Assembly: GCA_015065965.1 (NCBI GenBank)
Contig: SVPH01000018.1
Location: forward strand, 1-56,653
Direction of reading: 5' to 3'
DNA length: 56,653 nt
Source of the DNA: Oscillospiraceae bacterium
Lineage (GTDB): Bacteria; Bacillota; Clostridia; Oscillospirales; Acutalibacteraceae
In this document: in pieces, positions 25,287 through 56,653 of the stretch
Numbering within the stretch: position 1 is the first letter of the stretch
Layout: each line of letters begins with the position of its first letter
Notes under the pieces: generated by a model
Told to the model about the DNA's origin: nothing
Seen by the model: the letters and a program-made list of their open reading frames with translations, nothing else
The model's database searches: none
Translations under genes and position numbers: made by a program

Positions 25287-25324
25287 AAAAAACGCCCCAA
25301 AGCATATAATCTTGCTTTGAGACG
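25287..25324 (-). terminator. Regulated terminator of the T-box leader
   Basis: CGTCTCAAAGC / GCTTTGGGGCG stem (with G-T pairs) and 10-base loop, followed by six T residues on the minus strand. Its 5' arm adjoins the ACTC that closes the antiterminator, as T-box logic requires. Confidence 0.92.
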
Positions 25325-25557
25325 AGTAAAATCAAACCCGCGGTACCACTCAAATTGCGCTTGTTGCGCCGCTCAACGGACTCTATCAAGCCCTACACTT
25401 TAACGCAGTGTTTACGGAAACTGTCTACTGACCTGTTACGGATTTCGGAGTTTCTGCTCAGAAGGGATAGCATTGAATTGTTCCGCTGACGGCTCACACC
25501 AAACGCCGTCTCTCTGAAAACTTTGCAATTCCGCTTTCTTCGTCATCGCTTTTCTTG
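25287..25557 (-). promoter_or_regulatory. T-box riboswitch (tRNA-sensing leader) upstream of the acyl-CoA synthetase fusion
   Basis: Reading the minus strand: stem I base GCGATGACGAAG (25549-25538), AGAGAG (25515-25510), apical loop GGTGTGAGCC (25500-25491), 3' side with TGAGC near 25460-25456, then the T-box GAGTGGTACCGCGG (around 25352-25339), antiterminator closing ACTC, and a terminator with T-run. The GAAG/CTTC and GAATTG/CAATTC helices frame the specifier loop. Counting back from TGAG, the best-fit specifier is AUC (25468-25466, Ile); GCU (Ala, 25471-25469) is the alternative. Uncharged tRNA would stabilise the antiterminator and turn the gene on. Confidence 0.93.
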
Positions 25558-45472: not shown

Positions 45473-46510
45473 TTAAAAGATTTTATACCAAAACTTTATT
45501 AAAGTATAGTAGACCTCAAAAAACATTCTGTAAAAAATATCGCCAAATGTATATTTGCCCTCAATTTCAAGCATGTCGCCTGTATCGTTAACGGCAAGGA
45601 ATCTTGCAGTTTCAATCACACCGTCTGTTTCTCCGTTAGGGGAATGGATTGACATCATCAACTTACCGTCAAGTGTATAAAACAGCATCGGATGTCCGCC
45701 GTCATATTTAAAACTGCTGCCTCTTTCATAAAATGCTTCAGGATAATGAATCCAATTGCCGTATATTTCACCGTTATCCGAAACAGCCAAACCGACCGCA
45801 TATCCACCCGATTTTGAAAAATTGGACCACAGCATAATCAATCTGCCGTTTTCAGTGCGGTAAAGGCACGGACCGTCAGTAACGCGGCCGGTTGTCCACA
45901 GATGATTTTTTGCCCTAAAAAGCACAATCGGCTCACTGATAAAACGGCTCAAGTCATCACTGAGTTTTGCCGCTGCCATTTCGCCGACTTCATCGGGGCT
46001 TGATGTCCATTCATTAACATAAACCATCCACGGTTGACCTTGACGGTCGATATAGAGCGTGCCGTCAATACAGTCGATTTCTTTTGGAGTAACGTGACCG
46101 TCACTGATCATCACAAACGGACCAAGCGGAGAAGACGATTTATAGATTGCAGTTCCCCTTTTGCCGCTTGCCTGTGAACGGTATGTTGCAAAAAGATAAA
46201 AATTGCCGCCGTAATAATGGCACTCCGGTGCCCAGAAATCCGCAATCTCATCAGAACCTTCTGCAGGAGTATAAACCTGAACAGGGAATGACCAATCCTC
46301 AAGATTTTCGCTTACAACGCAGCCATAACCATTTCCGTTTGAAAGGCAAGTGCCGTACAAATAATACTTGCCGTCATGAACCAGAACATAAGGGTCACGC
46401 ACATGACCGTCTTCGGCTTTAAAAGGATACTCCTCGCTTGCATAAGAATTAAAGCAAACACAACTGAATATAAAAGCAAATAAAGTGACTGCTGAAACAA
46501 ATTTTTTCAT
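45473..46510 (-). CDS. Secreted glycoside hydrolase family 43 protein with aromatic C-terminal tail
   Basis: 345 residues from ATG 46510 (AGGGGTG upstream; the frame opens at 46537). The signal peptide ends near NSYASEE. Propeller motifs: Asp39 in GHVRDPYVL (base), DFWAPECHYY, Asp149 in CIDGTLYID, and TDGPCLYRTENGRLIMLWSNF at ~211, where many GH43 enzymes have an acid Glu and this one has Asp212. Some GH43 subfamilies carry this DGP form. It is extracellular, perhaps an arabinanase or xylosidase. The end (FYRMFFEVYYTLIKFWYKIF) is a strongly aromatic amphipathic segment shared in style with two other secreted proteins here. Followed by the epimerase gene. Confidence 0.87.
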   Translation of the reverse strand: MKKFVSAVTLFAFIFSCVCFNSYASEEYPFKAEDGHVRDPYVLVHDGKYYLYGTCLSNGNGYGCVVSENLEDWSFPVQVYTPAEGSDEIADFWAPECHYYGGNFYLFATYRSQASGKRGTAIYKSSSPLGPFVMISDGHVTPKEIDCIDGTLYIDRQGQPWMVYVNEWTSSPDEVGEMAAAKLSDDLSRFISEPIVLFRAKNHLWTTGRVTDGPCLYRTENGRLIMLWSNFSKSGGYAVGLAVSDNGEIYGNWIHYPEAFYERGSSFKYDGGHPMLFYTLDGKLMMSIHSPNGETDGVIETARFLAVNDTGDMLEIEGKYTFGDIFYRMFFEVYYTLIKFWYKIF

Positions 46511-46560
46511 ATTATACACCCCTGAATAATTTAGCACATTGATAAACTAATTTCAATATA

Positions 46561-47247
46561 TCAATTGCGTTTTAATGTTCTGAGGTAAGCCTTTTGTTCA
46601 TCGGTTATTCGGTAACTTTCAACCGCTTTTCTTATTGTTTTGTTATGCGTTTCTGCATCAAGCCTGTTATTCTCAAGGTAAGGAATAACTGCATCATACT
46701 GCTTTGCAAGTGCCGTTGCAAAGTACCACGCAACCATCATTTTAATGTAATATTCATCCGACCTGACTTTTGCAACAGCCTCTGGGTATTCAGGACTGAA
46801 AAGATCGTCAAGATAAAAGCACATCAGCATTTCAATGCCGAAACGCACCGTATATACGTGCTCCGAATTCATCCATTTTTCAATTTCCGAAAACAACTCT
46901 GCAAGATGGTTTTTAAAAATTTTCGGACGCATCATGTCACATGTTGCCCAGTTATCAACATACGGCAGAAAAATGTTTAGTTGCTTAATGCACTCATCAT
47001 AATCTTTTATACCCTCAATCAAAAATGCGTGAAGATTATTTTCTTCATAATATTTATGAGGAAGCGTTTTTATGAACTCTGCCGCACAAGGTGTTTTTGA
47101 AAATTCTTTAGCAAAACGCCTTAAATCAGGTGTACGCACACCGATAACCGTTTCCTTTGGAATAGTGGGCATAAGCCGTGAATGGAAATCTCTGTAACCA
47201 AAATCCTGCAATTCAAAAAGCCGCTCACGGATATATTTTTCCGTCAT
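46561..47247 (-). CDS. AlkD-like DNA alkylation repair protein
   Basis: 228 residues built of HEAT-like helical repeats: IGVRTPDLRRFAKEF, YYEENNLHAFLIEGI, VDNWATCDMMRPKIF and MMVAWYFATALAKQY. AlkD glycosylases remove bulky alkylpurines without base flipping; the conserved Asp-containing VDNWATCD is the active-site region. ATG 47247 has GGGTGG five bases upstream; a GTG at 47256 is less likely. The gene overlaps the end of the clan-A hydrolase by 23 bases. Confidence 0.92.
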   Translation of the reverse strand: MTEKYIRERLFELQDFGYRDFHSRLMPTIPKETVIGVRTPDLRRFAKEFSKTPCAAEFIKTLPHKYYEENNLHAFLIEGIKDYDECIKQLNIFLPYVDNWATCDMMRPKIFKNHLAELFSEIEKWMNSEHVYTVRFGIEMLMCFYLDDLFSPEYPEAVAKVRSDEYYIKMMVAWYFATALAKQYDAVIPYLENNRLDAETHNKTIRKAVESYRITDEQKAYLRTLKRN

Positions 47248-49783
47248 TGACACCACCCGATTTATTCATATATATATATGATGTTGAGTTAACAGTTGCC
47301 GAATATATATGCGGGGCAAACGAATCCTGACCGTTGAATTTAACCGAGCCGTCATTTGAAAGAAGAATTTTGTTCTCCCCTGCTTCAAGTTCAAGGTTTA
47401 TTGTAACGGTTTTAACTGTATCCCAACTGTAGGTGTTTCTGCACCATAAAGTTTGCTTATCGCCGTTTGCCTCAACGGTTACATAGCGTTCGATAAGGTC
47501 AACATTATAACTGTGCACTCCGCCTTCATCATTATTTGCGTAAGCAAGAGTCATTCTGTAACTGCCTGCATTCGGAACGGTAACCGTAAATTCTGCACTG
47601 CCGCCATTTGACGATATACCGTCAATATAATCACCGTTTAAAACAGCCGAACCGTCAATAGTCATTTCGCTTGCAGTTATGCATTCGGCAAAACCGTTTT
47701 TTTCTGTTTTATTTATACTGCAATCTATATCTTCTGTTGTTGCAACATCTATGTAATTCAGACCTTTTCGCAGATAAACAGCAGAAGTTCCGCTATCCGT
47801 GCTGCCCTTTGCACCGTCAATTTCAAACTCCGCCGCAGCGCCAATATTCATCTTATAAAATCCGTCTGCAGGCGATACTGCAAGGAACGATTTGTTATCG
47901 CCTGTTGTTCTGTCCGAATCTTTAAGCACAGTAATTGCAGTATCGTTGCTGTGAGGCACAACAAGCATGCTGTCAACAACAAATGTTCCGCTCTTATGAG
48001 CAAGAGTAATGCTGTGGCTGCCCTTATCAAGATAACGGATAAATGTCATTTTATCTGTGTATTCGCTCTTTATGGTATTGGGCAGCGAAATTTCCTGTTC
48101 TGTGCCGTCAAGAGTCATTGTTACAAGGGTATCTTTACGGTCATCGGGTGTTCTTCCGTCATTTGAGTTGCCGTAAATCAAAGTGAGGTCATAATATCCG
48201 CTCTCGGGTATATCAAAATTTACCGTAACGCTGTCACCGATATTTTCAAGACCGCCTACCATTCCGTTTTGCTGACCTGTTGTGGCATATGCGCTGTCAT
48301 AAGTATATGATCCGCCTGTGCGCACACCGTTTTCAAATTCATAGCGAACGGGAAGATTTTTATTTGTATAGTCAATTTCACCATCGGATTCGGTTACGGT
48401 GATATGATAAACCGCCGTAGGATCAATCTCTTCAAGTTCAACCTTAAGCCTGCCGAAAGGAGCACATGCCGTGTATTCACGCACAACATACGGCTCGGTA
48501 ACTATGCCGCTGATCCCTTCAAAATAAACACACTCTATGCGGACATTAACTTTTTCGCCAAGGTTAGTTTTGTCAAGATTTTTCAGATAAACACTGCCTG
48601 AATAATCACAGCCTCCGCAGATAACTGTGATTTCATCCTTATCCTCCGTCACAGATGCAATGCCCGTAAATCCGCTGTAATGGAATCTGTCATATCCGTA
48701 TTTTATTGCATTTGCAAAGTCAGCATGAAGCACATCTATAATTTTTGATTTGAGAAGGTCACCCTCCATATCAGTATACCAACGGTAAAGCCACCAGTTG
48801 GAATTAGGGCTGATATTATCTGCCGCTGTATCGTTGAGGTTATTGGCAAGGCGCCAATATGCCATGTTGCCGTAAACGCCTGAATTCTCAATCTGAACAA
48901 CATAATGAAGCATATCGGCGGGTGCGCCGCACTCATACATTGTGCCGTATTCAGTAACAATTACAGGCAAATCTTCAATGCCGAGGTCATCCTCGATACT
49001 TCTGTAATCATCAACATGCTCCTGCCAATATAATGACGATTTATCGCCGAGTTCATGATAAATCATAACATCGGGTACGCAGTTATTTTCTTTGCAGAAT
49101 TCAAGAAAATCTCTTATTTCATAACTGTCATAATCACAGTTACCTGGACCGCCTATAAGCGCAGCAGGATTTATTGATTTCACAAGGTTGTATGTTTCTT
49201 TCCATGCCTCATAGAAACGCTGCTTTGCCGCATCGTCAAACATAAGCCATGTACCGTCCTCGGACATTGTTCCGAACCACACGCCGTTATCCGCTTCGTT
49301 ATATATGCAGTAAACCAATCTGTCCGCATATTCTTTTTGTGAAAGTTCTCTTACCTTTTCTTCAACCTGAGAAAGAAAACGGTTGCGGACAAACTCCATA
49401 TGGTCATATTCCCCTGCTTTGCGCATCTGCCAGATTTCATCATGGCAATAATACCATGTGTCAAAACAATCCTGCAGATACACTGTTATGTAATCACAGT
49501 TACCAAGGGCAGGTGCGGCATTATCAACATCACCTATGGGATGCTGCAAACCGCCTATTACTTTTTGTGAAACGCTTGCAATATCAATGCTTTCGGTCAT
49601 TGCGTTGTCAGGTACATTGCTCTGTGCAATGCCGTAAAGGTAACCCGACGCTCTGCTTGAGACCTCACCCATGCTGATTGACGCATCGACCTCAATTGTA
49701 GGTTCAAACAAATACGGCAAGCCCTCCGCAGCAAGACCAAGCACTGTTATAAAACTTAATAATAAACTTATAAAATTACTCAT
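47225..49783 (-). CDS. Secreted clan-A (GH39/GH5-like) hydrolase with CBM35-like modules
   Basis: 852 residues; the hydrophobic N-terminus (SNFISLLLSFITVLGLAAE) is a signal peptide. Residues ~45-370 form a TIM-barrel with acid/base Glu163 in CIYNEADNG and nucleophile Glu278 in VIVTEYGT, the clan-A pattern; length and spacing suggest GH39 or a related family. A beta-sandwich (~375-465) follows, then a CBM35/CBM6-like module at ~478-607 (RYEFENGVRTGGSY...), a degenerate repeat and a second module at ~705-835 (ITASEMTIDGSAVLNG..., GSYRMTLAYANND). It should act outside the cell on plant or microbial polysaccharide. The start overlaps the flavoprotein stop (ATGA) with only a weak ribosome site, so it is translationally coupled. 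Confidence 0.83.
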   Translation of the reverse strand: MSNFISLLLSFITVLGLAAEGLPYLFEPTIEVDASISMGEVSSRASGYLYGIAQSNVPDNAMTESIDIASVSQKVIGGLQHPIGDVDNAAPALGNCDYITVYLQDCFDTWYYCHDEIWQMRKAGEYDHMEFVRNRFLSQVEEKVRELSQKEYADRLVYCIYNEADNGVWFGTMSEDGTWLMFDDAAKQRFYEAWKETYNLVKSINPAALIGGPGNCDYDSYEIRDFLEFCKENNCVPDVMIYHELGDKSSLYWQEHVDDYRSIEDDLGIEDLPVIVTEYGTMYECGAPADMLHYVVQIENSGVYGNMAYWRLANNLNDTAADNISPNSNWWLYRWYTDMEGDLLKSKIIDVLHADFANAIKYGYDRFHYSGFTGIASVTEDKDEITVICGGCDYSGSVYLKNLDKTNLGEKVNVRIECVYFEGISGIVTEPYVVREYTACAPFGRLKVELEEIDPTAVYHITVTESDGEIDYTNKNLPVRYEFENGVRTGGSYTYDSAYATTGQQNGMVGGLENIGDSVTVNFDIPESGYYDLTLIYGNSNDGRTPDDRKDTLVTMTLDGTEQEISLPNTIKSEYTDKMTFIRYLDKGSHSITLAHKSGTFVVDSMLVVPHSNDTAITVLKDSDRTTGDNKSFLAVSPADGFYKMNIGAAAEFEIDGAKGSTDSGTSAVYLRKGLNYIDVATTEDIDCSINKTEKNGFAECITASEMTIDGSAVLNGDYIDGISSNGGSAEFTVTVPNAGSYRMTLAYANNDEGGVHSYNVDLIERYVTVEANGDKQTLWCRNTYSWDTVKTVTINLELEAGENKILLSNDGSVKFNGQDSFAPHIYSATVNSTSYIYMNKSGGVNDGKIYP

Positions 49784-51144
49784 AATTCAGGTTTCCAATC
49801 TGAGAGTTTGCCTGTTGTTTTCCAAAGATTTTCTGCTTCTGCAACCCATGCTTCAAAGCCATCGGGTGTTTCGGGAAATTTTTCGTAATGATCGGTGAGT
49901 TTTCCGCTGTCGATCAATCCTTTTAAAATGCTTTTTATTTCTGCAATTTTAATATGGCCCGTAACAATACCTGCAATAACATAAACAGCAATCTTTAATA
50001 TATCCCCTGCACTGACATTGAGTTCCTTGCCCATGCCTCCGAGAATTTTCTTGCTGAAAATAACATCATGCTTGAAAAGGTACTCATTTGCCTTTGGGCT
50101 GTGCCTCACAATGCCCGTAAGCAGAGCCATAAGGCTCGCAAATTCCTTGCCCTGAGTATTATTATAAAGTTTGTTGATACTCCAGAGCGCTTCTCTTGTG
50201 GGGTATGCCCCGTCTGCCATTGCTTTTGATGCAACATCAACAGCAATTTGTTCGAGTGCAAGTGAAGCCGTACAGCCCTCGCCGCAGTTAGGCTTTGTAA
50301 TGCATGCGGCATCACCCATAGCGATAAATCCGTCAGCAACGAACGAATACGGTGCTCTGTGATATGGTGTTCTGCCTTTTTCGATTTTCTTAACGGTATG
50401 TTCGGGCAGTTTTGCATTCTTTGAAAACTGCGCAAAGCACTTTTCAACATAGTCAAACCCAAAACAAGCGCCTATGCCGAGAATTGCATCACTGCCTGCA
50501 CTGGGCGCAAGCCAACTCTTATAAGCAAGCCAAAATTCCGAAAAATTCCTCTTGCCTCTGCCGTCTGCAAAATCAACATATCTGAGGGTAACATACAGAA
50601 TATCATCGGGAGTAAGTTCAAACTTTTCAACGCCGTAATTATCGGGCAAACTGCGCCTTACAACAGCAGGAATACCCGAACAATCCGCAACAAGGCGGCA
50701 GCCAACACTTACCTTTTCGCCGTCTTTTACATATGTTACGCCGCAGATTTTGCCGTTTTCATCATAAACAAGGCCGTCAAATGCTGTGTTATAAAGAATT
50801 TCTGCTCCTGCTTTGGCAGCCCAATCGTTCATCAGAACTATATAGTCATGCTTATGCATACCGACAACGGTTGAGGGGGCAGGCTTAGGATAATTACTGT
50901 AAGCCGAAAGCATATCCTGATCAGTAAAAATGAATTCACAGATACCGTCGCCTTCTTTAACCTCAGGCAAACCGTATTGCTCCATTTCATCCTTACCCAT
51001 ATGGAAAACATCGTAATCAGGGCTGATTTTTTCTCTTGAACTCTTATCTAACATAAGAACGCTGAAGCCTTTTTCAGCCATTCTGCGCGCATAAAAACTG
51101 CCTGCGGTTGAAGCACCTACTACGATTATGTCATAATTTTTCAC
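49780..51144 (-). CDS. Geranylgeranyl-reductase-like FAD-dependent oxidoreductase
   Basis: 454 residues. GTG start at 51144 with AAGGGGAG six bases upstream; the frame opens at 51186. FAD-binding Rossmann motif YDIIVVGASTAGSFYARRMAEKG at the N-terminus (GxSxxG), and the second FAD motif GFIAMGDAACITKPNCGEGCTASL near residue 290. The family reduces isoprenoid double bonds or acts as FixC/monooxygenase-like dehydrogenases; the substrate is unknown. A hydrophobic stretch at ~385-405 (IAVYVIAGIVTG) may contact the membrane. Translationally coupled to the secreted hydrolase gene downstream. Confidence 0.88.
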   Translation of the reverse strand: MKNYDIIVVGASTAGSFYARRMAEKGFSVLMLDKSSREKISPDYDVFHMGKDEMEQYGLPEVKEGDGICEFIFTDQDMLSAYSNYPKPAPSTVVGMHKHDYIVLMNDWAAKAGAEILYNTAFDGLVYDENGKICGVTYVKDGEKVSVGCRLVADCSGIPAVVRRSLPDNYGVEKFELTPDDILYVTLRYVDFADGRGKRNFSEFWLAYKSWLAPSAGSDAILGIGACFGFDYVEKCFAQFSKNAKLPEHTVKKIEKGRTPYHRAPYSFVADGFIAMGDAACITKPNCGEGCTASLALEQIAVDVASKAMADGAYPTREALWSINKLYNNTQGKEFASLMALLTGIVRHSPKANEYLFKHDVIFSKKILGGMGKELNVSAGDILKIAVYVIAGIVTGHIKIAEIKSILKGLIDSGKLTDHYEKFPETPDGFEAWVAEAENLWKTTGKLSDWKPEL

Positions 51145-51191
51145 AACTAACTCCCCTTCTGAATTAATCTGATTTAATTTTAACAAACATT

Positions 51192-51226
51192 AAGCCGCAT
51201 TGCAACCATAATTTGCAATGCGGCTT
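51192..51226. terminator. Hairpin after the Nudix gene
   Basis: Perfect 13-bp stem AAGCCGCATTGCA / TGCAATGCGGCTT with a 9-base loop. A T-run follows on the + strand only; on the minus strand, where it ends the eight-gene operon, the tail is weak (AATGTTTGTT). Confidence 0.75.
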
Positions 51227-51233
51227 TTTAAGA

Positions 51234-51722
51234 TTATATTATACTCATTAATTTTGTTATAACAGTAAATTCCCTAAGGTACAAACTGCTCACGCCTTCA
51301 TTTTCAGCCCTGTATTTTTCATGCTCACCGAAAATTTCAAGTGCCTTATCAATCTCAATCCATTCAGGAACAATTCCGTGTTCAATCTCAATATCGGTAA
51401 GATTCGGGTTGCCCACACCCTTTATTTCACAAAGAAAATAGTTGTTGATAAACAGCGTTTCGTGAAAATACTCGTTGAATTCAAACACCTGTTTGCCCAC
51501 TTCAACATCATAGCCCGTTTCCTCGCAAAGTTCTCTTTTGCAGCAAGCCTCATATGATTCTCCGCTTTCAACCCCGCCACCCGGAGTCATATATACACCC
51601 GTATTCAACTCATGGGAGAGTAAAATCTTACTGCCGCTGACAATCAGACCTCGGCAGCCAACCCTTGTTTTTTCAGGCGAATTCATATATTCAGCGCTGT
51701 ATTGTGTAATTTTTTCAAGCAT
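51234..51722 (-). CDS. Nudix hydrolase
   Basis: 162 residues with a complete Nudix box: GGGVESGESYEACCKRELCEETGYD in two overlapping parts, i.e. the G-x5-E-x7-RE-x2-EE-x-G pattern. It hydrolyses a nucleoside diphosphate linked to another moiety; substrate unknown. Last gene of the operon, 25 bases after the radical-SAM gene. Nudix proteins of this size are common near GNAT and methyltransferase genes in Firmicutes. Confidence 0.92.
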   Translation of the reverse strand: MLEKITQYSAEYMNSPEKTRVGCRGLIVSGSKILLSHELNTGVYMTPGGGVESGESYEACCKRELCEETGYDVEVGKQVFEFNEYFHETLFINNYFLCEIKGVGNPNLTDIEIEHGIVPEWIEIDKALEIFGEHEKYRAENEGVSSLYLREFTVITKLMSII

Positions 51723-51747
51723 TCTTTAACCTCATTTTTTATTATTT

Positions 51748-52497
51748 TTATGGTTCATATGTATCAAGAATCTCAATTATATCCCGCTTACAAATATTGC
51801 TGCCGAGAATATCTCCGTTTGCGCTGAAACAGATTGCACGGATATCCGTCGGATCTTCCCAATACGGGCTTTTGGTTTCAGTGCTCAAATCAAAATATTC
51901 ACCCAGATATTTGAGTGCATTGCCGCTTGGGAATATCACATTTCCTTCGCTTGTTTCAATGCCCATTTTGTTAAAATCAGCAAGAATTTCTCTTGTTTTA
52001 TTGTTAAATGGATTCTCGGAATCCGGACTGACAAGCCACGCAGGATGAACTTGCAATTTAACATTTGGCACATTAACCGCTTTTACAAAAGACTTTACAT
52101 GTTCAAGCGGAATTGTTTCCTGATGAAAAGAATCAACCGAAAGCAGAATTTCGTTCACACCGCATTCGATAATCTTTTCTGCAACAGACTTTATTTTGTT
52201 ATAATCCCTGCTGAAAAAGCCGTTGGTTATGAGTTGCCTTTGAGGGATGTTCATTTCCTTTGCGGCTTTATGTATTTCACAAACGGTCTCACAGCAAAGC
52301 AAAGGCTCACCGCCGAATGTCATAACGGATTCGATGTTATATTCTTCGGAAATTCTTCTGACAGCGGTTGCCGCTAAATCTTTATCAATGGCATCTGAAT
52401 TTTTATGTTCTCCCTGAGAACAATGTTTGCATCTGCCCGTACAGGCCATAGTGACAACAAACTCTATGCGGTTAAGATTTTTTAAGTGTTTATTCAT
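51748..52497 (-). CDS. Radical SAM protein, function unknown
   Basis: 249 residues. The cluster motif is CTGRCKHC (Cys19-x3-Cys23-x2-Cys26), and SAM binding is suggested by VMTFGGEPLL. The barrel continues through RQLITNGFFS and EILLSVDSFHQE. The C-terminus has CFSANGDILGSNICKRD, a pattern seen at the entry of SPASM-like regions, but too few cysteines for a full second cluster. This could be a peptide- or metabolite-modifying enzyme; no precursor peptide gene is visible beside it. It follows the GNAT gene by one base. Confidence 0.88.
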   Translation of the reverse strand: MNKHLKNLNRIEFVVTMACTGRCKHCSQGEHKNSDAIDKDLAATAVRRISEEYNIESVMTFGGEPLLCCETVCEIHKAAKEMNIPQRQLITNGFFSRDYNKIKSVAEKIIECGVNEILLSVDSFHQETIPLEHVKSFVKAVNVPNVKLQVHPAWLVSPDSENPFNNKTREILADFNKMGIETSEGNVIFPSGNALKYLGEYFDLSTETKSPYWEDPTDIRAICFSANGDILGSNICKRDIIEILDTYEP

Positions 52498-52498
52498 C

Positions 52499-53071
52499 TT
52501 AATTTTCCTTAATATTTTTCATAAGTTTAAAATATTCTCCGTTTTCATCTGCACCGTCAAACAAAACCTCTGTAAATCCGAATTTTTTATACATATGCAG
52601 AGCATTGATGTTATCTTTGTCAACACCGATTGTCATTTCAGAATAGCCCATTTTCTTTGCTTTGTCAACAAGAAAAGCAAGTATTTCACTGCCTATGCCG
52701 CGGTTTCTGTACTCCTTCTTCACTATCATTCTTGAAACATAGATTCTTTGATCAGGTATGGTATAATCACTGTCACCGGTATCTAAAACCAACGCACCCT
52801 CTCCGATAAATTCACCGTTGATTTTATAAACAAACACCATGCGGTTGCCGTTTTTTATTTCTTCAAGCCATGTTTCGGCAAGCGGCTGATTTTTTATGTT
52901 CCAGATATTTGAACACTTATGGTAATCTTCGGGTCTGAGGGGTTCGATTGTAACTGTTTTTTTCTCATGTTTTTTATATGCAGATATGTCAAGTATGTTG
53001 TGAAATAAACTTTTTGTTTTGTTGCTGATATTATTTATCTTCATTATTGTACCACTTTTCCAAATCTTCAT
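52499..53071 (-). CDS. GNAT family N-acetyltransferase
   Basis: 190 residues, GNAT domain from ~43: TIEPLRPEDY, SRMIVKKEYRNRGIGSEILAFLV (acetyl-CoA-binding RNRGIG) and INALHMYKKFGFTEV. The N-terminal ~40 residues are basic and unrelated to the fold. ATG 53071 (AAGGGAAAG upstream) and ATG 53044 (AGTGG upstream) are both possible; the first overlaps the preceding gene by 41 bases. Acceptor unknown. Confidence 0.88.
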   Translation of the reverse strand: MKIWKSGTIMKINNISNKTKSLFHNILDISAYKKHEKKTVTIEPLRPEDYHKCSNIWNIKNQPLAETWLEEIKNGNRMVFVYKINGEFIGEGALVLDTGDSDYTIPDQRIYVSRMIVKKEYRNRGIGSEILAFLVDKAKKMGYSEMTIGVDKDNINALHMYKKFGFTEVLFDGADENGEYFKLMKNIKEN

Positions 53072-53999
53072 ACTTTCCCTTAAAATGAAAGCAGCGCCCG
53101 TTTTTGCTCATTCCGATTTTTGAAAGACCTAATTTTTCAAGTATACCTATAGATTTATGATTAGTAATATTGGCATAAGCCTCAACAAATTTCATGCCTT
53201 CACTTATATTATCAAATAAAAACCTATACAATCGCCTGAAAATGTTTTTGCCTTGATATGCCGATTTGAACTGAATTTCTTCCATCATAAATGTATCTTC
53301 ATTCGTATAATACTGAAAAAAGCCTATAACTCTTTCGTTATCTTTTATGAGAACAATCTGCCGATTCTCGCGCTTCAAGCCTTCACTCACGCCTTCATAC
53401 CAACACTTATAATCTTCTTCTCTTGTATTACCCGTTGGAGCAATAACAGACATGTTGTCGGCAAGAATATTAAATATTTCACGCGATATACGGTAAAAAT
53501 CGGTTTTATCAAGATAACTGAACGATATCGTCTTATCATAACGCATAAAAACAAACTCTGTATTCCTGTTAAACCTGTCAGGAATTACTTCACTGTATTT
53601 TACTGCAAAACCACATTCGCAATAACACTTTATTGCTCTCTCATTCCATGAGCGCACCTGCACCCAAATTTCTTTGTCAGGATATCTTTTACGGCATTCA
53701 GTTATTGTTTTGTTTAAATATAGTCTCCCTAATCCTTGCCCACAGAACTGCGGAGCAATACCAATACCTATATACACTCTTTCTTCTTTAGGGATAATGC
53801 TTGTATATGCAACAAGCGTTTCGTTATTCCAAAAACAGAGGTACTTATGTGCATTTTCTGCTTTGATTATGGCTCTTTGCTTTTTTAACGCATCTTCATA
53901 TGTCATGTAATTATAAACAGAATATGGTTGTTCATATTTCCAACTGCAAATTTCTTTTAATGCTTCGTGATTTATCGGTTCAAAATCAGTTTTTTTCAT
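53031..53999 (-). CDS. Tandem GNAT acetyltransferase
   Basis: 322 residues holding two GNAT domains in a row. The first (~1-155) has VYIGIGIAPQFCGQGLGRLYLNK and AIKCYCECGFAV; the second (~160-310) has MMEEIQFKSAYQGKNIFRRLY and HKSIGILEKLGLSKIG, where the acetyl-CoA loop is degenerate. One active and one regulatory or substrate-binding copy is a common arrangement. ATG 53999 is used; a TTG at 54005 has the better-spaced GGAG. It overlaps the GNAT gene upstream by 14 bases. Confidence 0.88.
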   Translation of the reverse strand: MKKTDFEPINHEALKEICSWKYEQPYSVYNYMTYEDALKKQRAIIKAENAHKYLCFWNNETLVAYTSIIPKEERVYIGIGIAPQFCGQGLGRLYLNKTITECRKRYPDKEIWVQVRSWNERAIKCYCECGFAVKYSEVIPDRFNRNTEFVFMRYDKTISFSYLDKTDFYRISREIFNILADNMSVIAPTGNTREEDYKCWYEGVSEGLKRENRQIVLIKDNERVIGFFQYYTNEDTFMMEEIQFKSAYQGKNIFRRLYRFLFDNISEGMKFVEAYANITNHKSIGILEKLGLSKIGMSKNGRCFHFKGKYEDLEKWYNNEDK

Positions 54000-54501
54000 C
54001 AACAAACCACTTCTCCATTATCACACTTCCGCCATAGTCTTCAATTACTTTAAAACCGTTTTTCTCGTACATTGAATACGATACAGGAGTATGCTTAAAA
54101 ACATTGAGCACCATTTTTAAAAAGCCTTTTTCACGGGCATCTTCCTGCAATTTTATGAAGGCGCTTTTGCCATATCCTTTTCCGCGGAATTCTTTTTTTA
54201 TTACATTTTCCGTAACAAATGCAGTGTTTTCTTCAAAGGGACTTTTCTGATAACCTATAACACCGATTTTCTCGTTCTTTTCGTTCACTACAATGTAAAT
54301 ATAGTTATCTGCGGAATATGCACCATTAGAAAATATATCGAGGAACTCTCTTTTGGCTGCTTTCCGCGCTTTGAATTTGAATTTTTCATCTCCTGATTTA
54401 ATTAAATTATCTGCATAATTTTTCACTGACCATTTTGAAAATTTTCTGAATTCATCTTTATTCATGCGTTTGAAACTGATTTGTTTTAATTCAACATTCA
54501 T
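53986..54501 (-). CDS. GNAT family N-acetyltransferase
   Basis: 171 residues. The acetyl-CoA-binding loop is in VIKKEFRGKGYGKSAFIKL and the C-terminal signature is PVSYSMYEKNGFKVIEDYG. It belongs to the YhfA/unnamed single-domain GNATs; acceptor unknown. It lies nine bases after a P-loop kinase gene and overlaps the next GNAT gene, so it is tightly coupled in the operon. Confidence 0.9.
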   Translation of the reverse strand: MNVELKQISFKRMNKDEFRKFSKWSVKNYADNLIKSGDEKFKFKARKAAKREFLDIFSNGAYSADNYIYIVVNEKNEKIGVIGYQKSPFEENTAFVTENVIKKEFRGKGYGKSAFIKLQEDAREKGFLKMVLNVFKHTPVSYSMYEKNGFKVIEDYGGSVIMEKWFVDEKN

Positions 54502-54510
54502 ATGCTCACC

Positions 54511-54993
54511 TTAAATACTCTTCATAAACTCTGAAACCTGCCGTTGTGACTTCAGCACAATGGTTTTATCTTTATATTTCTCCACGATTTCCGCATAGGA
54601 CTGCCGCCTTTCTTTGTTTCTGCAACCAAACAAAGTGAACTTCACAAACCACCGGTTCAAATCATTTTTATACCCATCCTGTCTGCGTGATTTTGTTCTT
54701 TTCACTGCACGGTAAAAGCAAGTCAGCCGAGGCAGAAGAAGCAAAACTATCATATCTGCCTTTTCGAGGCGTTCATCGTAAAACAGATATTTATAATAGC
54801 CGTCAATTATCCATCTATCCTTTGCCATAAAATCCGAAACCTGCGGCAAAACAAGTGAATCATCAATCGGGTTCCACTCCTTATCCCACTTGATTTCATC
54901 AAGGTGAAGAACGGGAATATTCTTCTTTTCGGATATATAATCTGACAAATATGTTTTTCCGCTGCCTGCATAACCCAAAACTGTTATTTTCAT
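54511..54993 (-). CDS. Adenylate-kinase-like P-loop protein (FlaR/topology-modulation type)
   Basis: 160 residues from ATG 54993 (AAAGGA nine bases upstream; TTG 54999 is less likely). Walker A GYAGSGKT at residues 7-14, VLHLDEIKW as Walker-B-like region and WIIDGYYKY. A small nucleoside or metabolite kinase fold; members are annotated as topology-modulation proteins on weak grounds. The insertion with RRQDGYKNDLNRW distinguishes it from the second copy next to it. Confidence 0.86.
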   Translation of the reverse strand: MKITVLGYAGSGKTYLSDYISEKKNIPVLHLDEIKWDKEWNPIDDSLVLPQVSDFMAKDRWIIDGYYKYLFYDERLEKADMIVLLLLPRLTCFYRAVKRTKSRRQDGYKNDLNRWFVKFTLFGCRNKERRQSYAEIVEKYKDKTIVLKSQRQVSEFMKSI

Positions 54994-55004
54994 AATCAAA
55001 TCCT

Positions 55005-55493
55005 TTATAATTGTTTTATATACGCATCCGAATCTTCTCTTGATTTGAAAATTATCACTTGCTTCTTGGCATTATATTTATCAATCAATTCATATATTTT
55101 AGGCAGGCTGTTTACGGGAAATTCTTCAATAAATTTCAAGAAAGCAGGATCAATTTCTTTTTCTATCCACGGCATATCATAACGCCCCTTGCCCAGTCTG
55201 TCCGTAGCACCCTGAATACATACTTCTGTAGGCAAATCAAACAGAAAAATCGTATCACACTGCTGAATACGCATTTCGATTGTTCTGTTGTAGTTGCCGT
55301 CAATTATCCATTCAGGTGTTTTGAAAATTTCTGCAACCCTTTCGTCATATTCTTCTCTTGAAATATGAGTTTTATCAGGCTTATGCCATATTGCATCCAG
55401 ATAATATAACGGCAAACCCGTGCATTTATTCAATTTTTCTGCAAAAGTTGTTTTTCCGCTTCCGGGACAGCCTATCACAATGATTTTTTTCAT
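55005..55493 (-). CDS. Adenylate-kinase-like P-loop protein, second copy
   Basis: 162 residues: Walker A VIGCPGSGKTT (residues 6-16), LYYLDAIWHKPD, EWIIDGNYNRT. Related to the neighbour at 54511-54993 in length and motifs but clearly diverged, so the pair is not a recent tandem duplication. It probably phosphorylates a small molecule or nucleotide. The start overlaps the methyltransferase stop by four bases. Confidence 0.88.
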   Translation of the reverse strand: MKKIIVIGCPGSGKTTFAEKLNKCTGLPLYYLDAIWHKPDKTHISREEYDERVAEIFKTPEWIIDGNYNRTIEMRIQQCDTIFLFDLPTEVCIQGATDRLGKGRYDMPWIEKEIDPAFLKFIEEFPVNSLPKIYELIDKYNAKKQVIIFKSREDSDAYIKQL

Positions 55494-56233
55494 ATTTTTC
55501 TCGCTTTAACTATCAAGAAATTAGGTTTTATATATTCTTTAACAATTGTAGGTAACTTTTCTATTGCCCAATCTTCCGGTACAGGTTCGCAGACTTCTTC
55601 AATTATAAAGCCTGCTTTTGCAAGAGCGTTGAAAATATTGCTGATTGTGCGGTGATATTTCACAACGCCGTCAACATACCAATGAATTCTGCGCTCACCC
55701 GGTTCATTGTAATTTGAAAAAGTGTATGAAACTCTGTTACCGTTCTCATCTTTATTGAAATGACCGTTTCCGTCAATCGTTGCGGTTATAATCGGATGCT
55801 CTTGTGAAAATAAAAGTTGACCGCCGTTATCCAGCGTCGAATACATAACTTTAGCAAAAGCATCAAAATCCTTAACATAATGAAATGCCAGTGAACTATA
55901 AATGAAATCAAATTTTTTATTGAGTTTTGATATATCCGTCATGCTTATATTGAAGTATTCAATTTTACTGTGTGACGATTTTTCCTTTGCAACTGAAAGC
56001 ATCTTTTCCGATATATCAACACCGACAACCCTTTCAGCACCTTTGTTCACAAAATCAAGGCAGTTATGACCGTAACCGCAACCTAAGTCTAAAACAGATT
56101 TACCGTTTAAATCAGGCAGCATTTTTGCCATTGCAGGCTGTTCAAGTAAGTCGTTATAGTTGATATCGTTATCTCGTAAAGCCTTGTAGCCTTCAAAAAA
56201 GATTTCATTGTCAAAAATATTTTGTTTGCTCAT
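55490..56233 (-). CDS. Class I SAM-dependent methyltransferase
   Basis: 247 residues. SAM-binding motif I VLDLGCGYGHN (~46-56), VVGVDISEKML, FDFIYSSLAFHYV and LLFSQEHPI. It resembles the Methyltransf_11/UbiE-like small-molecule methyltransferases rather than rRNA methylases of the Erm type, but rRNA action is not excluded. TTTTGGAGGA lies upstream of ATG 56233. First structural gene of the eight-gene operon, 20 bases after a regulated terminator and preceded by an 18-codon leader peptide. Confidence 0.9.
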   Translation of the reverse strand: MSKQNIFDNEIFFEGYKALRDNDINYNDLLEQPAMAKMLPDLNGKSVLDLGCGYGHNCLDFVNKGAERVVGVDISEKMLSVAKEKSSHSKIEYFNISMTDISKLNKKFDFIYSSLAFHYVKDFDAFAKVMYSTLDNGGQLLFSQEHPIITATIDGNGHFNKDENGNRVSYTFSNYNEPGERRIHWYVDGVVKYHRTISNIFNALAKAGFIIEEVCEPVPEDWAIEKLPTIVKEYIKPNFLIVKARKI

Positions 56234-56253
56234 GGTTTAATCCTCCAAAACAA

Positions 56254-56280
56254 ATAAAAGCACCTCCGAAACGGAGATGC
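56254..56280 (-). terminator. Regulated terminator (attenuator) ahead of the methyltransferase operon
   Basis: GCATCTCCG / CGGAGGTGC, 9 bp with a 3-base loop, followed by TTTTATTTG, and located between promoter and first gene. Its 5' arm can instead pair with CGGAGTGC inside the leader peptide (56333-56326), so the two structures exclude each other. Confidence 0.85.
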
Positions 56281-56305
56281 CTCACACTTACCGAAAGATA
56301 CTACA

Positions 56306-56362
56306 TCAATCATAAACGGACAAAACGGCACTCCGATTAAATGTGTTAATCATTCTTGTCAT
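56306..56362 (-). CDS. Leader peptide of 18 codons (uORF) upstream of the attenuator
   Basis: ATG 56362 with AGGTGG five bases upstream encodes MTRMINTFNRSAVLSVYD, then TGA at 56308-56306. It lies between a consensus promoter and a terminator, in the same transcript as the methyltransferase. The bases over its ribosome site and start (GGACAAAA, 56369-56362) are perfectly complementary to TTTTGTCC near its end (56325-56318), and CGGAGTGC within it is complementary to the terminator arm. These features match leader peptides that sense stalled ribosomes; the inducing drug or amino acid is unknown. Confidence 0.72.
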   Translation of the reverse strand: MTRMINTFNRSAVLSVYD

Positions 56363-56392
56363 TTTGTCCACCTGCCTTAAATAATTTTCTAC

Positions 56393-56421
56393 ATTGTAAC
56401 AATATAAAAAAAATTTGTCAA
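56393..56421 (-). promoter_or_regulatory. Promoter of the attenuated methyltransferase-GNAT operon
   Basis: Minus strand perfect TTGACA (56421-56416), 17-base spacer, TACAAT (56398-56393). The transcript should start near 56386, giving a ~150-base leader that contains the uORF and the attenuator. Confidence 0.9.
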
Positions 56422-56430
56422 TAGTCTTAT

Positions 56431-56458
56431 AAAAACAAAAACCGCCTCTATTGAGACG
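56431..56458 (-). terminator. rRNA operon terminator
   Basis: Stem CGTCTC / GAGGCG (G-T pair included) with AATA loop, followed on the minus strand by GTTTTTGTTTTT. It lies ~85 bases after the 23S 3' end, leaving no room for 5S rRNA. Confidence 0.82.
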
Positions 56459-56540
56459 ATTAATTTCGGTGTTATTCAATACACCCTGAAAACTGAACAA
56501 AGGTGGAAACGAAGTAGTAACGGAACTTGAGATATAAACA

Positions 56541-56653
56541 TTGGTCAAGCCCTCGACCTATTAGTATTGCCAAGCTGAACGTGTCACCACGCTTACACAT
56601 GCAACCTATCAACCTCATAGTCCATGAGGGGTCTTACTGGCTTACGCCATGGG
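56541..56653 (-). rRNA. 23S ribosomal RNA, 3' end (partial)
   Basis: Read on the minus strand, the stretch ends ...CTAATAGGTCGAGG-GCTTGACC, the conserved 3' terminus of bacterial 23S rRNA, preceded by GTGGTGACACG and other helix-101-region sequence. The gene runs beyond the window; its 3' end is near 56541-56543. The segment 56459-56540 after it is unique spacer. Confidence 0.93.

Follow-up and report, generated by a model that had tools for sequence, protein, structure and literature searches.

The window, by which we mean the whole stretch of 56,653 nucleotides that was analysed (contig SVPH01000018.1 of an Oscillospiraceae bacterium), carries near its end the 3′ end of a 23S rRNA gene, a short leader and an array of eight genes, all on the minus strand. 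From higher to lower coordinates, the features are as follows.

56541..56653, minus strand: 3′ end of a 23S rRNA gene, upstream of the leader (Rfam RF02541, 78.5 bits)
56440..56461, minus strand: terminator-like hairpin between the rRNA gene and the leader promoter (from a scan; 9 pairs, then a T run)
56393..56421, minus strand: sigma-70-type promoter, TTGACA-17-TACAAT (11 of 12 consensus matches)
56368..56373, minus strand: Shine-Dalgarno AGGTGG of the upstream ORF (uORF), read from the sequence and conserved in alignment A4 of relatives
56362..56369, minus strand: 5′ arm of hairpin 1, the putative anti-antiterminator, GGACAAAA, extending to the A of the uORF start codon
56306..56362, minus strand: uORF of 18 codons plus stop, read from the sequence, MTRMINTFNRSAVLSVYD
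56327..56335, minus strand: candidate antiterminator 5′ arm within the uORF, CGGAGTGCC, which can pair with the terminator 5′ arm
56318..56325, minus strand: 3′ arm of hairpin 1, TTTTGTCC, which can pair with GGACAAAA
56257..56283, minus strand: intrinsic terminator before the methyltransferase gene (12 pairs, loop of 3, T-rich tail)
56272..56281, minus strand: terminator 5′ arm, GGCATCTCCG, alternative partner of CGGAGTGCC with one bulged T
55490..56233, minus strand: class I SAM methyltransferase, 247 aa (PF13649, PF08241; nearest solved structures 3g5l and 3bkw)
55005..55493, minus strand: small P-loop kinase-like protein, of the DNA topology modulation family by name (NF005994, below its cutoff)
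54511..54999, minus strand: second small P-loop kinase-like protein (NF005576, below its cutoff)
53986..54501, minus strand: GNAT acetyltransferase (PF00583)
53031..54005, minus strand: two-domain GNAT acetyltransferase (PF00583, two stretches)
52499..53071, minus strand: GNAT acetyltransferase (PF00583)
51748..52497, minus strand: radical SAM protein (PF04055)
51234..51722, minus strand: NUDIX hydrolase (PF00293)
51192..51226, minus strand: terminator-like hairpin ending the array (14 pairs)

The promoter hexamers lie at 56421-56416 and 56398-56393, with a 17-base spacer and a TG preceding the second. When 46000-56653 was scanned, this promoter was the best of 32 promoter-like sites, a number that shows no excess over shuffled sequences (32.4); terminator-like sites in the same range numbered 18, against 8.0 in shuffles. 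The methyltransferase ATG is at 56233, 23 bases past the terminator. Hairpin 1 and the antiterminator pairing are mutually exclusive. The fold of 56387-56234 reaches -47.2 kcal/mol, with a z of -4.8; among 200 shuffles no fold was equally good, and the predicted ribosome-free fold consists of hairpin 1 and the terminator. A preliminary description of this DNA had named the promoter, an 18-codon uORF with its own ribosome site, the terminator and two alternative pairings, and all of these are present on the minus strand. The eight-gene operon that it placed behind the leader is likewise there, as eight same-strand ORFs from 56233 to 51234 with overlaps of at most 41 and gaps of at most 25 bases, closed by the last hairpin listed above.

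The rRNA gene is a feature that the preliminary description left unmentioned. The leader promoter starts 120 bases past the 23S 3′ end, and Rfam finds no 5S gene behind that end in the window. At 3 of 16 further loci scanned (L050, L062 and L076) a 23S 3′ end also lies upstream of the leader, some of the loci possibly ending short of the rRNA; with the window, these four loci represent two leader classes. Linkage to rRNA is not a general property of the leader. Elsewhere in the window, a T-box leader at 25315-25555 on the minus strand (Rfam RF00230, 96.5 bits) is the only cis-regulatory Rfam match.

Relatives of the leader were sought at several taxonomic depths. BLAST with the leader matched 20 of 45 genus genomes at E 0.01, including the window's own, several of these being short weak matches. 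A covariance model (R1), built from 17 sequences and covering the uORF part, matched 16 of the 45 genus genomes at E 0.001 (own included, one to three copies each), 16 of 295 order genomes at E 0.01 (own included, with G158, G175 and G259 unconvincing) and 1 of 299 phylum genomes at E 0.0001, the one being the window's own; the larger model searches score few candidates per genome and can miss weak copies. The place in G259 and the one place examined of six in G158 are not readable as uORF leaders, and G175 is doubtful. An exact pattern was found in 3 of 391 class genomes and in at least 117 stretches of a collection of 84,980 species genomes, while a search with an exact 29-base pattern gave no matches.

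The family so assembled comprises 125 distinct leaders, mostly from Clostridia; the sample is skewed by the search pattern, in that most of hairpin 1 is prescribed by it. Because the leader is partly self-complementary, pattern and model also match the antisense strand, and such matches (L116, L141, L144, L167 and L215) were removed from the leader counts. The 134 distinct pattern-type leaders were reduced to 131 with a uORF of 8-45 codons, to 127 after removal of four false or antisense rows, and to 125 after removal of two more antisense rows. An intrinsic terminator was found in 118 of the 125, at least four of them doubtful, and five of the seven without one have fewer than 50 bases downstream. 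Some of the 125 are one record entered twice (e.g. G022 C19 and SVOC01000025); merging identical leaders left 106 unique ones among those with a terminator, and 102 after L089, L165, L181 and L186 were dropped before the pairing test, L165 having unread bases and the other three seeming to have no good matching terminator. Four pattern matches are non-leaders, from Bacteroidales (one), Prevotellaceae (two) and Lachnospiraceae (one).

By their titles, the carriers are mostly Clostridia metagenome-assembled genomes (Oscillospiraceae, Lachnospiraceae, Christensenellaceae) with a few Bacilli, and many are named for gut samples of goat, sheep, deer, buffalo, rabbit or chicken. The named-strain carriers are Pseudoflavonifractor capillosus An386a and Paenibacillus ginsengarvi KCTC 13059. 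The window leader had no match in the plasmid or phage collections, leader L086 none in the plasmid collection, and one leader pattern with variants none in viral contigs; on these searches, the idea of the leader as a plasmid or phage passenger was rejected. The window genome holds a second, divergent leader (L096, contig C26, 9868-9931, minus strand, MTMRMNSLFKTEVLCPLGISL) with a GGACAC/GTGCCC version of hairpin 1, and the gene behind it encodes an ABC transporter membrane domain.

The preliminary description had suspected an undescribed attenuator, and we came across nothing that would place it in a named family. Rfam gave no leader match for the whole window at the gathering threshold or for six leader loci at E up to 1, and a known Rfam leader was accordingly rejected. 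No description of the family was met in the literature searched, which included parts of two genome-wide RNA-motif papers (PMC11109978, PMC8632094) and of a premature-terminator survey (PMC2965389); the family may still be listed elsewhere.

Since the search pattern fixes most of hairpin 1, statistics on this helix were taken from the genus set and from a model-based set only, the latter being itself fitted to the structure. In the 46 model matches (alignment A6), 92.8% of cells are paired, against 37-58% when slid; this set includes antisense rows L082, L090 and L168 and non-leader L093, and a recount of the 42 rows without them gives 93.1% paired and two pairs with two-sided changes. Two-sided changes occur at 2 of 12 pairs in the 46 rows, and shuffles reach the same in 227 of 500 cases. 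One of these changes, A-U to C-G, comes from the three-member subclass of the window genome's second copy. Among 17 genus-level sequences no pair has two-sided changes, and shuffles pair equally well in 500 of 500. Hairpin 1 is nearly invariant, so its covariation support is weaker than that for the helix between uORF and terminator.

For that second helix, the uORF in each of the peptide classes named further below has a stretch complementary to the leader's own terminator: CGGAGAGCC with GGC(A)TCTCCG, AAATCAGA with TCTGATTT, CGAAGTGTC with GACACTTCCG (allowing G-T or a bulge), CTGATAAAATCA with TGATTTTATCAG and TTATACGAAGCC with GGCTTCGTATAA. In a first test, which used only the terminator 5′ arm and loop, the own terminator scored above all dissimilar others in 19 of 106 leaders and fell in the best 5% for 44. 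After this weaker result 8 bases of the 3′ side were added, because the helix runs through the loop in the 16-codon class, and with this later choice the own terminator outscored every dissimilar foreign terminator in 79 of 102 unique leaders (79 of 106 if the dropped four are counted as failures), fell in the best 5% for 87 and exceeded all 60 shuffles for 77, with a mean z of 4.7; z was below 2 in 11 of the 102. The window leader pairs better with its own terminator than with any of 46 dissimilar foreign ones (z 2.6 against shuffles).

A 12-base helix was then scored in its best register in the 45 unique leaders with 15-17 codons. It reached 10.83 of 12, against 9.65 (sd 0.13) for re-dealt terminators, and the maximum of 1000 re-deals, with the register chosen likewise, was 10.14. 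Every column of this helix shows two-sided changes, including C-G to U-A, U-A to C-G and A-U to G-C; a few rows with a poor match in this register account for some of these changes. Across the sequences compared, the pairing of uORF with terminator is what is conserved in the family; the elements of the leader, their conservation and this compensatory pairing can all be read from the sequences. The preliminary description had proposed an attenuator with competing hairpins, to be given up if relatives lacked compensatory pairing, and relatives do carry the uORF-terminator pairing, conserved and with compensatory changes.

To follow the effect of translation on this pairing, a ribosome was placed at each uORF codon of the 102 leaders and the RNA downstream of it was folded with the terminator 3′ arm only begun. 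With the P site at codons 1-5, at least five expected antiterminator pairs formed in 92, 92, 85, 56 and 45% of leaders, respectively, and from codon 6 onward, where again only downstream RNA was folded, in no more than 11%. With no ribosome, 34% could form the antiterminator early by the same measure. Once the whole terminator had been made, the antiterminator was kept at equilibrium in 30% of leaders at codon 1 and in 12% at codons 2-3; the complete terminator is the more stable state in most leaders, so switching would have to be kinetic. For the window leader, which the preliminary description had proposed to fold with and without a ribosome, predicted antiterminator pairs before the 3′ arm was made numbered only 1.5 at codon 1 and 9.1, 10.1, 8.9 and 8.3 at codons 2-5, and with the full terminator 10.6-11.5 terminator pairs were kept at every ribosome position shown. 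The low value at codon 1 and the retained terminator pairs speak against the switch.

The position of the antiterminator strand bears on where a ribosome might stall. In the 42 leaders with 16 codons, its first base lies between +14 and +18, counted from the A of AUG, and in 22 of them at +16; in the 42 with 18 codons, the window's class, the start is spread over +13 to +29. The edge of a start-codon ribosome is given as +16 in the 30S toeprint among the vmlR results drawn on here (PMC9226507) and as +16 to +18 for Escherichia coli under tetracycline in the corresponding part of the toiL study (PMC12121999). The antiterminator of the 16-codon class thus begins at the edge of a start-codon ribosome, and this geometry points to a stall in the first codons. 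On this geometry, the stall on the uORF that the preliminary description had proposed would lie in the first codons, as in vmlR and cplR rather than erm.

We consider it probable that the leader is a ribosome-operated transcription attenuator, in which a stall close to the uORF start would let the antiterminator form and the usual cause of the stall would be a translation inhibitor. In the OFF state without a ribosome, hairpin 1 would close at the uORF start codon and enclose the antiterminator strand, and the terminator would form. With a freely moving ribosome the uORF would be read through, the antiterminator strand would be covered or freed too late, and again the terminator would form. 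In the ON state, a ribosome held in the first few codons would mask the 5′ arm of hairpin 1 and leave the antiterminator strand bare; this strand would pair with the emerging terminator 5′ arm, polymerase would read through and the enzyme array would be made. The downstream acetyltransferases, methyltransferases, exporters and others would then act against the translation inhibitor. We infer the switching of the two pairings, the stall near the start codon and a translation inhibitor as its usual cause.

In the erm and cat systems, a ribosome stalled on a leader ORF induces the resistance gene, mainly by translational attenuation with specific arrest peptides. The preliminary description had invoked these systems, and its attenuator with competing hairpins is supported; a specific arrest peptide is not. 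The uORFs of relatives have 15-26 codons, with start, Shine-Dalgarno and in-frame stop present. Their peptides fall into classes, among them a Met-rich (MTMMINTMNRRAVLSVCD), a Tyr-rich (MTMYYVNYSESYMKSDVILSAI) and an aromatic one (MTFYFLYYLNFNIKSDVVLSAI), besides MTNRKNDVMQNVLNRSVVLSAMLC, and other families have 16-residue peptides such as MTFRILIKSSAILSAV or MTKTVNLLYEAVLSAR. These biases, and those at early positions of the 102 related leaders (residue 2 is T in 72, residue 3 is M in 36 and residue 5 is I in 47), would suit an attenuator of the same build that takes as its signal a ribosome stopped at one given codon or by one given nascent peptide, through amino-acid shortage or peptide-specific drug arrest. 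We judge such a signal unlikely, since no early position is common to all classes, and the codons for the residues that many peptides do share, K-S and A-V-L-S, lie in the pairing arms, K-S being absent where the arm sequence has changed (L106, L142 and L177). With shared residues lying mainly in pairing arms and early codons varying between classes, a specific arrest peptide is unsupported, and much of the uORF peptide seems to be shaped by the demands of RNA pairing more than by what the peptide does. Shortage of an amino acid is also at odds with the downstream genes, where no amino-acid pathways appear among the 25 of 44 families listed.

Two classical types were rejected. An amino-acid leader of the trp/his type would need a run of control codons ahead of the matching biosynthetic genes, but the 102 leaders share no common codon run and the first genes are GNAT and others. 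For an erm-type system, the early residues that vary between classes leave no conserved arrest peptide, the solved relatives of the methyltransferase are other class I methyltransferases, and no Erm family occurs among the 25 of 54 NCBIfam families listed or among 15 Pfam families.

A ribosome paused near the end of the uORF, at TTTTGTCC or the stop codon, would also block hairpin 1 and might let the antiterminator form behind it, the leader then responding to slow termination or to slow translation in general. From the antiterminator strand to TTTTGT downstream of it the distance is 0-11 nt, and the strand could be free behind such a ribosome, but the residues after VLS vary between classes and the +16 placement in the 16-codon class would be left unexplained, so that this version seems to us quite improbable.

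A second layer of control may act at the Shine-Dalgarno of the first gene. Many relatives have, behind the uORF stop, a stretch that can pair with this region (TCTTTCTGTAAA with TTTACAGAAAGA, CCTTTTTCATA with TATGAAAGAGG), and over 72 leaders the pairing scores 16.9 against 14.58 (sd 0.34), with a maximum of 15.66 in 1000 re-deals. Such pairing would be akin to the additional Shine-Dalgarno control in vmlR and cplR, and it would speak for a leader that is chiefly a translational attenuator or an mRNA-stability element with the terminator secondary. The own pairing, however, is in the best 5% for only 16 of the 72 and weak in the window (z 1.5, rank 26), and a terminator accompanies nearly all leaders, at the count given above; we hold this primacy of translation to be very unlikely. 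That the locus holds just a plain terminator after an rRNA operon and a chance small ORF, with no regulation, gains from its place directly behind a 23S gene that has its own terminator-like hairpin, but can be practically dismissed, given that the second terminator follows a new promoter and that conservation and compensatory change in many genomes, before different genes, contradict it unless the leader set is wrong.

The leader stands before a varied set of genes. Of 110 first downstream proteins found, 104 were scanned, four short and two antisense ones being excluded. PF00583 occurs in 59 of the 104 and GNAT_C in 7, and many of the proteins are interrelated. The other first genes encode histidine phosphatases (4), methyltransferases (3), MFS transporters (3, with weaker similarity to Mef(A)), PF09818 ATPases (3), LytTR regulators (2), nucleosidases (2) and P-loop kinases of DNA-topology name (2), and singletons include an S66 peptidase and an ABC-transporter protein. 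A wider set of 112 proteins falls into 39 BLAST clusters, with 45 members in the largest; since the proteins cluster by relatedness, family counts are not independent. The window genome (2.33 Mb) has 14 PF00583 matches, four of them in the leader operon, so that GNAT proteins are strongly over-represented behind the leader.

Homologs of the eight operon genes were found in 14 of 15 further stretches searched. At 11 of the 14 loci, the methyltransferase is present and is preceded, on its own strand, by a leader at a distance of about 0.1 to 9 kb, which is the association that the preliminary description had suggested looking for. Of the remaining loci, L044 and L047 start at a contig end with no leader seen, and L174 has a leader and only the kinase homolog. 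L043-L046 and L048 hold several operon homologs in differing orders, 63-87% identical with one at 55%. The recurrence of gene families in these five (L043, L044, L045, L046 and L048) looks like that of a reshuffled array, yet the genes are packed with small gaps.

Some leaders differ in what follows them. In L054 and L070, the uORF and terminator are intact with no clear gene start close behind, and these are possibly orphaned copies. L039 and L042 share a nearly identical promoter and 5′ half with L040 and L041, after which the two pairs differ in uORF, terminator and first gene (GNAT-like for one pair, a LytTR regulator for the other), as though the switch had been exchanged together with its first gene.

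Ribosome-mediated attenuation is an old idea, and the best reading of the leader is a form of it, transcription attenuation with logic like that of vmlR and cplR, a longer uORF and varied targets. In the vmlR leader of Bacillus subtilis, which has a three-codon uORF (MIN) and one ABC-F gene as its target, a start-stalled ribosome frees the antiterminator and polymerase passes the terminator, with extra Shine-Dalgarno control (PMC9226507). As there (PMC9226507), the uORF start lies inside a putative anti-antiterminator hairpin, a pairing that is conserved here with hardly any covariation. In the cplR leader of Clostridioides difficile, with uORF MR[I/M] and an ABC-F target, retapamulin or lincomycin stalls the uORF, and both transcription and translation are attenuated (PMC10201436). 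The likeness to cplR lies in uORF-stall attenuation in Clostridia, with no shared peptide seen in the account used (PMC10201436).

Compared with these two systems, the uORFs here have 15-26 codons instead of three or four, the uORF itself contains the antiterminator strand and one hairpin arm, unlike in vmlR, and the targets are varied enzyme and exporter genes; the first gene at this locus is a methyltransferase, and no ABC-F protein appears among the 25 of 44 Pfam families listed. The toiL uORF upstream of topAI-yjhQ in E. coli responds to drugs of several classes, among them tetracycline and retapamulin, which stall ribosomes at its start codon, and as described there works through Shine-Dalgarno occlusion and Rho-dependent termination, whereas the leader here has an intrinsic terminator (PMC12121999). 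The uORFC-6-1 motif upstream of hflX in Bacillales is a covarying RNA with a uORF, which its authors suspect of sensing antibiotic-stalled ribosomes; it differs in having an Arg-Leu-Arg peptide motif and mainly one target gene (PMC8632094).

The support for the attenuator is comparative throughout, and from it we infer what triggers the switch (a drug or some other stress on translation), in which direction it works and what the enzymes do. A broader view, which we offer tentatively and at somewhat less than an even chance, is that the leader may be an alarm cassette that can move between loci: a single type of attenuator, sensitive to ribosomes caught at the start codon and not to one drug or peptide, would have been placed or kept before many unrelated detoxification-type genes and reshuffled arrays in gut Clostridia, forming a regulon for initiation-stage translation stress without a protein regulator. 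If the attenuator reading is right, this would be a start-stall attenuator with the antiterminator strand and one hairpin arm inside the uORF coding sequence, and the family would offer a large, directly testable set of natural stalled-ribosome sensors in bacteria mostly known from metagenomes. Many uncharacterised acetyltransferases, methyltransferases and kinases of these bacteria would then be probable answers to translation inhibitors.
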